From NCBI GenBank assembly GCA_013791585.1, contig VMTK01000026.1, positions 1 to 52,620 on the forward strand: a stretch of 52,620 bases of DNA. Reading direction: 5' to 3'. Position 1 is the stretch's first letter; each line of letters starts with the position of its first letter. Source of the stretch: Candidatus Falkowiibacteriota bacterium (lineage in GTDB: Bacteria > Patescibacteriota > Patescibacteriia > Patescibacteriales > VMTK01). Positions 1,429 through 4,697 of this stretch are shown one piece after another. The position numbers were made by a program, and so were the translations under genes. The notes under the pieces are model-generated. The model saw only the letters and a list, made by a program, of their open reading frames with translations, had not been told where the DNA came from and made no database searches.

Positions 1429-1615
1429 AATTAGATGTAATGCTAATCCGCGAATAAATACTAATCCGCGAATTGCGAATTTTTAAATTAAAAATACAAG
1501 ATTATGAAAATATGGAAATAAATCTAAAAAATTGTTTCAAATATTCTCGTATTTTCATATTTTCATTATTATTAGCGATTAGTTGATTGGCATTTATTCG
1601 CCGGATTAGCATTAT
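1429..1615. repeat. Word-repeat intergenic hairpin upstream of leuS
   Basis: Words such as GCTAATCCGCGAATAAATA and AAATACAAG..GAAAATATGG on the left pair with CGTATTTTCATATTTTCAT and TTATTCGCCGGATTAGC on the right. The arms span nearly the whole spacer between the CNNM gene and leuS. No separate promoter can be told apart from the AT-rich repeats. Confidence 0.75.
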
Positions 1616-1619
1616 TACT

Positions 1620-4600
1620 ATGTATAACCACCAAAAAATAGAAAAAAAGTGGGCGGAAAAATGGGTTAAGGATAAAACTTTTACGCCGGATCTGGAAAAA
1701 GCCAAAGACCCTTATTACGCGCTGTTTATGTTTCCCTACCCCAGCGCGGAGGGCTTGCATATCGGCAATTTTTACGCGTTTACCTGCGTGGATGTGATGG
1801 CTAAATACAAAAAGCTTCAAGGCAAAGACGTGTTTGAGCCGATCGGCTTTGACGCTTTTGGCATACACAGCGAGAATTACGCCTTGAAGATTAACGAAAC
1901 CCCGAGAAAAATGCTTAATAGAACAATAGCTAATTTTAGGAACCAGCTAAGCTCGGCCGGACTGGGGTGCGACTGGACGCGGGAAGTGGACACGACAGAT
2001 CCTGAATATTATAAGTGGACACAATGGATATTTACCAAGCTTTTTGAAAAAGGCCTTGCTTACCAAAAAGAAGCTCTGCTGAACTGGTGTCCGGGCTGTA
2101 AAACAGTCCTGGCTGACGAGCAGATTGAAAACGGCGTATGTGAAAGATGCAAAACCGCTCCGGAAAAAAAGATCATGAAGCAATGGTTTTTTAGAATAAC
2201 CGCTTATGCCCAGCGCCTGCTTGACGGCCTGGAAACAATGGACTGGTCGGATATTACCAAGCACGCGCAGAGGAATTGGATTGGGAGATCGGAAGGAGCG
2301 AGCGTGAAATTCCAAATCTCAAATTCCAAATTACAAACCCCGCAACATCGCTGCGCGACAACGGGGCAAGCAAATTCCAAATCCGAAATTTCAAATTTCA
2401 AATATGAAATTGAAGTTTTTACGACAAGGCCGGATACTTTATTCGGCGCGACTTATTTTGTCATGTCTCCGGAACATCCTCTTGTTGAAAAGATAACTTC
2501 TCCAGAACAAAAAAAGGAAGTGGAAAAATACATTAAAAAAACAGGGGCAAAATCTGATTTGGAACGCGCTGAAGCCAAAGAAAAAACAGGAGTATTTACC
2601 GGCGCTCATGCCATTAATCCGGTTAATAATGAAAAAATTCCGGTCTGGATCGCTGATTATGTTCTAATGGGCTATGGCACCGGCGCCATTATGGCAGTGC
2701 CGGCGCATGATGAGCGGGATTTTGAATTTGCGGAAAAATATAATTTGCCGATTAGGCAGGTTGTGGCGGGAAAAACACAAAAACACAAAAACACAAAAAC
2801 ACAAAAACACTGTTTAATTATTCATGGTTCACCGCGGTGTGACAAAAGTAAAGATACGGATTATACACCCGATAATATAAAGCACTGGCTTGGCTGGTTA
2901 AAGAAAAGATTAGAAAATAATAATTATAAGGTATATAATCCGCAAATGCCGACTCCGTGGGAGCCGGATTATCAGGAATGGAAAAAACAAATTGATAAAT
3001 TAGATATTAACGAAAATTCTGTGATTGTTGGCCATAGCGCTGGCGGCGCGTTTGCTGTTCGCTGGTTGAGTGAAAATAAGAAAAAAATTGACAAATTAAT
3101 ACTTATTGCAGCCGGCAAGACTATTACAGATGATAATAAGAGATTGCATAATTTTTATGATTTTAAAATTAATCAAAATATAAAAAATAGAGTTAATAAA
3201 ATAATTATTTTTGTTTCCGAAGATGAAAAAAAATATAGAATAGCAAGCGCTAAATTATATCAAAAAGAATTGGGCGGTGAATTGCGGATATTAAAAGATA
3301 GAGGACATTTCACTGTTACAGCTAATCCAATTAACAAAGAATTTCCAGAGTTGTTAGAAGAAATTTTAAAAGACAAATGTTTTGTTGGCGATGGCATAAA
3401 CATAAACTCTGATTTTTTAAACGGACTGGAAACCGAACAAGCAAAAGAAAAAATGATTAAATGGCTGGAGGAAAATGAACTGGGCAAAGGAACTGTGAAT
3501 TATAAATTGCGCGACTGGTGCATCAGCCGGCAGAGATACTGGGGGCCTCCTGTGCCGATTGTTTACTGTAATAAATGCGGGGTTCAAGCCGTGCCGGAAA
3601 AAGATTTGCCCGTAGAACTGCCTGAGATGGAAAAGGGCTGGGAGCCGGTCGGAGACGGGCGCGGGCCGCTGGCTAAAGTAAATAAATTCATTAAAACCGT
3701 TTGTCCGAAATGCGGAGGTTCGGCCGAGCGCGAGCCGGATGTAATGGATAATTTCCTGGATTCCGCCTGGTATTATTTCCGCTATGTCTCTCCGCGCGAC
3801 AACAAAAACATATTTGATAAAAAATTAAGCAAAAAATGGCTGCCGGTGGATCTGTATGTCGGCGGCAACGAACACGCAGTACTTCATCTGATGTACACCC
3901 GCTTTATTGCTATGGCGTTGCATGATCTGGGTTTAACTGATTTTGACAATCCTTTTAAAAAATTCCGAGCCAACGGCATGATATTAAAAGACGGCAAAAA
4001 AATGAGCAAGTCAAAAGGCAATGTCGTGAATCCGGAAGAGTACGGCGCCAAAGTCGGCTATGACGCGCTAAAAACTTATCTTTTATTTTTGGGGCCGTTG
4101 AATGAAGACCGATCGTTCAGCGATTCGGGCGTGCAGGGCGCCAAGCGCTGGATGGAAAGGATAGATCGGCTTGAAGAAAAAATAAATAATAATTATGAAG
4201 ATGATAAAAAAATAATAAAAAAACTGCATCAAACCATTAAGGCGGTAACAGACGATTTTGAAGAGCAAAAATACAACACAGCCGTGGCTCGCCTAATGAA
4301 GCTTACCAACAGCTTGAGCGTGGAAAAAAATATTTCCGGCCAAACTTGGGAAAAATTCTTGATTCTTGTCGCTCCTTTCGCGCCTGCCTTAGCTGAAGAG
4401 CTGTGGTCATCCTTCGCTAAAGCTACGGATGATAAAGCGGAAAGGTTTAAACAATCAATTTTTAAAGCAAAATGGCCGAAACATAATCCTAAATTAATCA
4501 AAGATGATATTATTAATCTTGTGATTCAAATCAACGGCAAATTGCGCGATACTATTGAGACGCCAATTAATATAAGCGAGAAAGAAGCGCAAAAAATCGC

Positions 4601-4697
4601 TTTGGAGAGTGATAAGATTAAAAAGTGGACGAACGGCAAAAAAATTATTAAAGTGATATTTGTTAAGGGGAAACTTATTAATATAGTGATAAAATAA
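1620..4697 (+). CDS. leuS: Leucyl-tRNA synthetase with embedded α/β-hydrolase
   Basis: LeuRS attaches leucine to tRNA-Leu. Class I signatures are present: the HIGH-type motif LHIGN in the first 60 residues, KMSKSKGN near residue 800, zinc-type cysteine pairs (CPGC..CERC), the editing-domain motifs TTRPDTLFGATY and GTGAIMAVPAHDERD, and a C-terminal anticodon-binding domain. At 1025 residues it exceeds the usual 800-880 because of inserts: about 205 residues forming a serine hydrolase within the CP1 editing domain (2771-3390), a word-repeat/palindrome segment (2306-2408) and a palindromic insert in the C-terminal domain (4407-4432). I chose ATG 1620 (MYNHQKIEKKW, typical LeuRS start); an upstream in-frame ATG at 1587 lies inside the hairpin repeat. 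The synthetase core is intact, so the enzyme is probably active. Confidence 0.95.
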   Translation: MYNHQKIEKKWAEKWVKDKTFTPDLEKAKDPYYALFMFPYPSAEGLHIGNFYAFTCVDVMAKYKKLQGKDVFEPIGFDAFGIHSENYALKINETPRKMLNRTIANFRNQLSSAGLGCDWTREVDTTDPEYYKWTQWIFTKLFEKGLAYQKEALLNWCPGCKTVLADEQIENGVCERCKTAPEKKIMKQWFFRITAYAQRLLDGLETMDWSDITKHAQRNWIGRSEGASVKFQISNSKLQTPQHRCATTGQANSKSEISNFKYEIEVFTTRPDTLFGATYFVMSPEHPLVEKITSPEQKKEVEKYIKKTGAKSDLERAEAKEKTGVFTGAHAINPVNNEKIPVWIADYVLMGYGTGAIMAVPAHDERDFEFAEKYNLPIRQVVAGKTQKHKNTKTQKHCLIIHGSPRCDKSKDTDYTPDNIKHWLGWLKKRLENNNYKVYNPQMPTPWEPDYQEWKKQIDKLDINENSVIVGHSAGGAFAVRWLSENKKKIDKLILIAAGKTITDDNKRLHNFYDFKINQNIKNRVNKIIIFVSEDEKKYRIASAKLYQKELGGELRILKDRGHFTVTANPINKEFPELLEEILKDKCFVGDGININSDFLNGLETEQAKEKMIKWLEENELGKGTVNYKLRDWCISRQRYWGPPVPIVYCNKCGVQAVPEKDLPVELPEMEKGWEPVGDGRGPLAKVNKFIKTVCPKCGGSAEREPDVMDNFLDSAWYYFRYVSPRDNKNIFDKKLSKKWLPVDLYVGGNEHAVLHLMYTRFIAMALHDLGLTDFDNPFKKFRANGMILKDGKKMSKSKGNVVNPEEYGAKVGYDALKTYLLFLGPLNEDRSFSDSGVQGAKRWMERIDRLEEKINNNYEDDKKIIKKLHQTIKAVTDDFEEQKYNTAVARLMKLTNSLSVEKNISGQTWEKFLILVAPFAPALAEELWSSFAKATDDKAERFKQSIFKAKWPKHNPKLIKDDIINLVIQINGKLRDTIETPINISEKEAQKIALESDKIKKWTNGKKIIKVIFVKGKLINIVIK
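2306..2408 (+). repeat. In-frame word-repeat/palindrome insert in leuS
   Basis: Between IGRSEGASVKF and IEVFTTRPD the gene carries repeated words of the type AAATTCCAAAT, surrounding a GC-rich palindrome (CCCCG at 2338-2342 against CGGGG at 2362-2366). It is translated as a low-complexity Ser/Asn/Lys stretch (QISNSKLQ.., SKSEISNFK). Normal LeuRS proteins have only a short β-hairpin here. The DNA matches the style of the intergenic word hairpins, so an intergenic-type repeat appears to have been tolerated in frame. Confidence 0.8.
2771..3390 (+). other. RBBP9/YdeN-like serine hydrolase domain inside LeuRS
   Basis: Residues about 384-590 of LeuRS form a complete α/β-hydrolase fold. It starts with LIIHGSPRCDKS, followed by a W-rich segment (HWLGWLKKRL, PTPWEPDYQEWKKQI) characteristic of the RBBP9/YdeN family. 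The nucleophile elbow is GHSAGG (Ser473). A plausible acid is Asp535 (VSEDE) and a plausible base is His563 (DRGHF). The insert is entered through four tandem AAAACACA-type words (2771-2811) and leaves just before VGDGININSDFLNGLE, a normal LeuRS editing-domain segment. The reading frame is open throughout. The catalytic residues look intact, which argues for selection on the domain and against random junk; its substrate is unknown. Confidence 0.85.
4407..4432 (+). repeat. In-frame palindromic insert in the leuS 3' part
   Basis: TCATCC at 4407-4412 faces GGATGA at 4427-4432 around TTCGCTAAAGCTAC. It is translated as SSFAKATDDKAERF, in the anticodon-binding/C-terminal region, where the surrounding LeuRS sequence resumes on both sides. 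It resembles a small palindromic repeat element accommodated in frame. Confidence 0.55.

Follow-up and report, generated by a model that had tools for sequence, protein, structure and literature searches.

A serine hydrolase embedded in a patescibacterial leucyl-tRNA synthetase, and exchangeable enzymes in corresponding slots of LeuRS, IleRS and ValRS

Aminoacyl-tRNA synthetases are among the cell's most constrained enzymes, and repeated insertion of a whole, exchangeable enzyme at fixed sites within them is unexpected. The closest described relatives of the inserted enzyme that we characterize here, human RBBP9 and B. subtilis YdeN (PF06821), are stand-alone proteins found outside any synthetase. 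Human RBBP9 forms acyl-enzyme adducts with Leu/Ile, Met, Phe, Tyr and Trp and requires a free alpha-amine, and aminopeptidase/esterase activity on hydrophobic amino acids is known for the human protein only (PMC8866121). We found no open-access literature on embedded hydrolases, NUDIX domains or phosphatases in synthetases of Patescibacteria.

The window, by which we mean the whole 52,620-nt stretch analysed, comprises positions 1-52620 of contig 26 of G000, a draft genome of 73 contigs. Its host is a bacterium with a tiny genome, whose essential leucine-charging enzyme carries a second enzyme in a loop. Compared with bacterial LeuRS (TIGR00396; T. thermophilus 2bte, E. coli 4aq7/5omw), the window protein is alike in all domains, in its editing motifs and in KMSKS, but differs in that a loop of its CP1 editing domain holds an enzyme of 189 residues, that HIGN replaces HIGH, and that a short repeat insert lies at the start of CP1 (Table 1). 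The leuS frame is open from 1587 to 4697, and the ATG at 1620 gives the 1025-residue LeuRS. This protein matches the full NCBIfam leuS_bact model, for which the cut-off is 548.4 bits, and in a Pfam scan its residues 218-395 match PF13603, the LeuRS editing domain. Its whole-protein model (pLDDT 88) has a normal fold, with a TM of 0.84 to E. coli LeuRS. Only one leuS and one copy of the embedded hydrolase are present in G000. The altered class I signature recurs in relatives of the window LeuRS, and takes the form HVGN in G001.

Table 1. Features of leuS and its embedded hydrolase in the window
Feature	Position	Strand	Basis or remark
leuS, leucyl-tRNA synthetase with embedded hydrolase, 1025 aa	1620-4697	+	TIGR00396, 917 bits; single copy in genome
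HIGH motif, reads HIGN	1758-1769	+	Sequence; HIGN also in G051, G059, L110, L111
Short in-frame insert at slot C, derived from repeats (AAATTCCAAATCTC-type units); disorder predicted	2307-2416	+	Repeat search; pLDDT < 50 at residues 239-258
Editing-site TTRPDT motif, intact	2421-2438	+	Sequence
Editing-site Asp of AHDERD, intact	2709-2711	+	Sequence
Five copies of AAAAACAC, N-terminal linker of insert	2771-2810	+	Sequence; genome-wide pattern count; low pLDDT at 387-393
RBBP9/YdeN-type serine hydrolase, slot A, residues 398-586	2811-3377	+	PF06821, 7e-14; RBBP9/YdeN in PDB by sequence and fold
Nucleophile Ser473 (GHSAGG)	3036-3038	+	Ser in 47/47 LeuRS-embedded homologues
Asp535-Glu536, acid position of triad (SEDE)	3222-3227	+	Alignment to RBBP9; Glu in 18 free relatives
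His563 (GHF)	3306-3308	+	His in 47/47 LeuRS-embedded homologues
LeuRS sequence resumes, CFVGDGININSDFLNGLETEQ	3378-3440	+	Alignment with uninterrupted G051 LeuRS
Slot B, zinc knuckle CNKC/G (/ denotes the slot), empty in window LeuRS	3567-3581	+	Most other carriers hold hydrolase here
KMSKS motif, intact	3999-4013	+	Sequence

The insert is an in-frame stretch of 200 residues within the CP1 domain, flanked by YNLPIRQVVAG and CFVGDGININSDFLNG. It matches the Ser_hydrolase family PF06821 of Pfam (52.5 bits, against a gathering threshold of 22), both when scanned alone (7e-14) and when scanned within the whole protein (1.1e-12). Its sole sequence relatives in the PDB are human RBBP9 and B. subtilis YdeN, at E ~1e-7. 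Together with the TIGR00396 match, these results bear out the preliminary description of this DNA, which had read a whole RBBP9/YdeN-type hydrolase in frame in the LeuRS CP1 editing domain, with normal flanks. The insert that it placed at 2771-3390 is real, though its limits are redrawn here into a repeat array, the hydrolase and resumed LeuRS sequence.

Structure prediction, which had been proposed as a check, likewise agrees. In the whole-LeuRS model the insert is well folded, with pLDDT mostly 85-96 except at residues 406-413, and is joined by low-confidence linkers; Foldseek with the insert's own AlphaFold model ranks RBBP9 and YdeN first (TM 0.74-0.82, alpha/beta-hydrolase fold). The insert is a complete domain, predicted to fold independently of LeuRS. 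On these models the hydrolase sits on flexible linkers in the CP1 loop and leaves the synthetase and editing folds unharmed. RBBP9 and YdeN have the same fold, motif order, and Ser and His positions as the insert. They differ at the acid, where the column of RBBP9 Asp138 aligns with Glu536 of the window copy, Asp535 adjoining. Thus, of the Ser-Asp-His triad initially proposed, the serine and histidine stand while the acid cannot be read as a simple Asp. The nearest free-standing sister family likewise often has Glu in this column, and D or E fills it in 40/47 embedded copies, compared with invariant Ser and His.

The proposed search of other LeuRS for a like insert found the hydrolase in dozens of them, and the window LeuRS belongs to a slot system that spans the phylum and that the preliminary description had missed. 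Mapping 123 LeuRS by profile anchoring located inserts at four places: slot C at the start of CP1, slot A in the CP1 loop used in the window, slot B, which follows CEKC within the zinc knuckle, and, in rare cases, slot D. Hydrolases lie 8 at A, 33 at B and 6 at C (47 tree rows), and NUDIX domains 24 at A and 1 at C (n = 25); because the LeuRS sample was partly picked through hydrolase matches, these proportions are not population frequencies. In a less biased set of 60 genomes of the same order, about 16 of 56 LeuRS hold a large insert. Rarer guests are HAM1-like, Y1_Tnp-like, weakly aminoglycoside-adenylyltransferase-like and, once, HAD-like; this last, in slot A of L092, had been taken for NUDIX, an assignment rejected by motif check. 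The Y1_Tnp (IS200/REP-type transposase) domain lies in frame in slot C of the LeuRS of two genomes (L026, L096). Four domains are embedded in the 1558-residue LeuRS of G100 (L083), one HAM1-like, one NUDIX, one a serine hydrolase, with a further domain at slot D. On contig 52 of G011, LeuRS matches are mirrored on both strands, suggesting an inverted-duplication assembly artefact.

Close relatives differ in what these slots contain. The nearest LeuRS relatives, meaning those named in the public set, are L110 (from a MAG labelled Candidatus Parcubacteria RS_3_30) and L111 (Candidatus Falkowbacteria B7_G4), 83% and 80% identical over best segments; both have NUDIX in slot A, where the window LeuRS has the hydrolase. 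In the LeuRS of G059, slot A is taken by a hydrolase other than that of the window, and slot C by a HAM1-like domain. That of G051, up to 84% identical, has no enzyme in slot A, only a repeat-derived linker. Relatives with an uninterrupted leuS and a free hydrolase gene nearby had been named as grounds for doubting the finding; G051 has the uninterrupted LeuRS and a free hydrolase homologue, on a contig other than that of leuS. This case does not refute the finding, since the domain recurs at several slots in dozens of further LeuRS.

The AAAAACAC array through which the insert is entered is open in every frame, and AAAAACAC is dispersed through G000, with 77 forward and 53 reverse matches (≤2 mismatches), the ValRS gene included. 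These features leave an opening for an assembly chimera, in which misassembly at the repeats joined a free hydrolase gene into leuS: the 5′ junction is a low-complexity, dispersed repeat, and the assembly is a draft. However, the reading frame continues across both junctions, we saw no repeat at the 3′ end of the insert, and like architecture is present in dozens of other assemblies, some of very few contigs (two in G082). Slot A itself holds a hydrolase in G214, G059, G191, G243, G106, G126 and G233 as well. Because the architecture recurs, and because leuS and the hydrolase are both single-copy in G000, we reject a chimera as very improbable.

Two genomes of one genus provide a direct comparison of presence and absence. 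Slot B holds a hydrolase in G042 but not in G022; their flanks are near-identical and the junction is exact. Such clean presence and absence with preserved flanks could also be expected of a self-removing element, intein-like or intron-like, that restores a normal LeuRS. We judge this the least probable of the explanations considered, given that Pfam and NCBIfam scans of the window LeuRS found no intein family, that the insert has a known hydrolase fold with conserved catalytic residues, and that unrelated enzymes occupy the same site. Defence-system profiles gave no match.

The G042 insertion is free of repeats. Tandem AAAAACAC words had been thought to hint at the route of insertion; an array does mark the entry in the window, but the words are dispersed genome-wide and do not alone account for it, and repeats as a general driver of insertion are unsupported. 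Because the G042 versus G022 insertion has none, repeats are not required for insertion; they are markers of insertion-tolerant loops. Some loops without an enzyme are filled by short repeat-derived linkers, as in slot C of the window and slot A of G051. The ValRS gene of G000 (contig 50, 29257-32082; L002, L004, L177) has two in-frame AAAAACAC-type arrays that encode KTQKHKNTK peptides, and no enzyme. Other short in-frame repeat-derived peptides in LeuRS (SSFAKATDDKAERF; LNEAKRNEESRERRDGLKASGSFAGAQDD), at 4407-4445 of the window and in slot C of L111 and L119, resemble palindromic repeat insertions.

Confinement of the phenomenon to LeuRS was rejected on a control set of ValRS and IleRS. These too have large inserts, in CP1 and at the counterpart of slot B (after SRQ..WGHR.PVW or SRERYWGTPLPVW), with histidine phosphatases in 2 ValRS and 4 IleRS, NUDIX in 2 IleRS and an RBBP9-type hydrolase in 1 ValRS. 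A class search for the histidine phosphatase put 69 of the roughly 155 matches listed in frames of 650-1320 residues. Twenty long frames were fetched, 12 of them ValRS and 8 IleRS, and every long frame examined was one or the other (26/26; L261, L262, L266, L267, L269, L272, L276-L295). Across LeuRS, IleRS and ValRS, NUDIX, HAM1-like, HAD-like and histidine phosphatase enzymes use slots that are identical or that match in position. Each synthetase thus has a preferred guest, and the editing class Ia synthetases are concerned as a group.

The hydrolase family is unevenly distributed among its hosts. A class search with the window hydrolase returned many matches in frames of about 1000 residues, which are LeuRS, and two class searches place the hydrolase in LeuRS in at least 43 of the 381 genomes sampled. 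Outside this class but within the phylum, 13/13 long hosts checked are LeuRS. Free homologues are present in many genomes. Only about six long hosts that are not LeuRS were seen, which led us to reject the idea that the hydrolase is indifferent to its host: among long hosts in Patescibacteria, the family lives almost only in LeuRS. The exceptions, apart from one ValRS, are named by reading their sequences rather than by family scan; they are a TatD-like nuclease interrupted by the same family (L251, 2999-4369, + strand), a glycosyltransferase (L242), a HAM1 fusion (L107), DUF2130 (L247) and a transglutaminase-like protein (L252).

In a tree of 112 hydrolases, 47 of them LeuRS-embedded, there are 6 changes between LeuRS and other contexts, compared with 10 changes of slot among the embedded rows. 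LeuRS-embedded copies alone make up two clades, of 27 and 13 rows (SH-aLRT 90 and 98). The window copy groups with those of G071 (slot B) and G214 (slot A), close to a free family. A smaller, earlier tree with bootstraps agrees. The first tree's sampling bias in free homologues was checked with a second search, from a slot-B hydrolase, and the larger tree, and the result held. On the LeuRS tree, the hydrolase switches between present and absent at least 21 times, and NUDIX does so at least 22 times, the latter with labels that still counted L092, later reassigned as HAD-like. Between G153 and G246, the slot-B hydrolases are 84% identical while the LeuRS cores are only 57% identical, indicating that the domain moved between LeuRS genes and stayed constrained. 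LeuRS genes thus exchange hydrolases as domains. This pair, the closest measured and one that does not include the window copy, has a dN of 0.11 and a dS of 0.94 (dN/dS ~0.12), which points to purifying selection on the family; dN/dS is saturated for several other hydrolase pairs. The embedded enzyme is likely active, selected and exchangeable.

It is less clear that the embedded enzymes have anything to do with aminoacylation. They may be passive passengers, caught as abundant small single-domain genes by tolerant CP1 and zinc-knuckle loops of Leu-, Ile- and ValRS through illegitimate or repeat-mediated recombination, and kept for ordinary free-enzyme function or not at all. This reading, to which we give a little under an even chance, bears on coupling to tRNA charging and not on the reality or intactness of the enzyme. 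It fits the many different domains in the slots, a REP-type transposase domain included, the short repeat-derived linkers in the same slots, and the patchy presence of the hydrolase alongside free homologues, with a free gene in so close a relative as G051. Against it, LeuRS-only hydrolase lineages change slot and not host, and the slots of ValRS and IleRS, though just as tolerant, almost never hold the hydrolase and mostly take phosphatases. Furthermore, none of the 18 LeuRS with two or more inserts has two of one kind, where 5.2 would be expected (P ~0.0003, from shuffling kinds within slots and ignoring phylogeny).

Alternatively, the hydrolase could be a cis- or trans-editing module that adds a second proofreading step, either by deacylating misacylated tRNA(Leu) or by cleaving hydrophobic aminoacyl esters that LeuRS releases. 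Its site in or beside the CP1 editing domain and its LeuRS-restricted lineages are consistent with such a role, as are the amino acids and free alpha-amine preferred by RBBP9 (PMC8866121). The intact CP1 editing residues nevertheless leave nothing to compensate for; a long stretch of sequence separates slots B and C; and an editing function cannot explain the NUDIX and phosphatase domains in the same slots. The slots in CP1 and in the ZN-1 knuckle may be close to where the tRNA 3′ end passes, which would count in favor of editing. The domain is also dispensable for LeuRS, being missing from most of them. Because it is dispensable, free copies exist and unrelated enzymes share the slots, we consider a dedicated editing role rather unlikely. 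The sharing of slots by unrelated enzymes, and the occasional presence of the hydrolase in other hosts, argues for a general carrier role over a specific editing role.

We favor LeuRS as a chassis for an accessory enzyme, and think it likely that the RBBP9-type hydrolase is autonomous and tethered. Held on the synthetase, it would act on its own; by analogy with human RBBP9, its likeliest substrates would be small esters or amides of hydrophobic amino acids. Since RBBP9 forms acyl-enzymes with such residues and needs a free alpha-amine, hydrophobic aminoacyl esters are our best guess, and the hydrolase may clear mischarged or free aminoacyl esters near LeuRS. Coupling of the hydrolase to tRNA charging or editing is, on our analysis, plausible rather than probable. 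With similar reserve we suggest that LeuRS, IleRS and ValRS could be modular scaffolds in Patescibacteria, with exchangeable enzymes (RBBP9-type hydrolase, NUDIX, histidine phosphatase, HAM1, HAD) in corresponding slots, a preferred kind for each synthetase and at most one of a kind, the cassettes moving between genomes through recombination within the synthetase gene and being linked to the removal of aminoacyl esters or nucleotides in the vicinity of tRNA charging.

These proteins form a natural set of bifunctional synthetases and offer naturally tested insertion sites for protein engineering. They also carry a warning for annotation, as many NUDIX, histidine-phosphatase and serine-hydrolase domains in these genomes are parts of synthetases. 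Whether minimal-genome bacteria tether nucleotide or aminoacyl clean-up to their charging enzymes becomes a testable question, for which the link to RBBP9, through its Leu/Ile and Met acyl groups, offers an immediate assay of the hydrolase.

Two known arrangements come closest to the one described here. NCBIfam NF040702, an IleRS with an N-acetyltransferase domain, likewise places a second enzyme on one class Ia synthetase polypeptide; it matches the window LeuRS weakly, through the synthetase core. In contrast to that family, several unrelated enzymes interchange here in fixed internal slots of LeuRS, IleRS and ValRS across the phylum. The CP1 editing domain, too, is hydrolytic and is an insertion in class Ia synthetases. 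CP1, however, is standard in LeuRS, IleRS and ValRS and edits, whereas the embedded enzymes are patchy and exchangeable.
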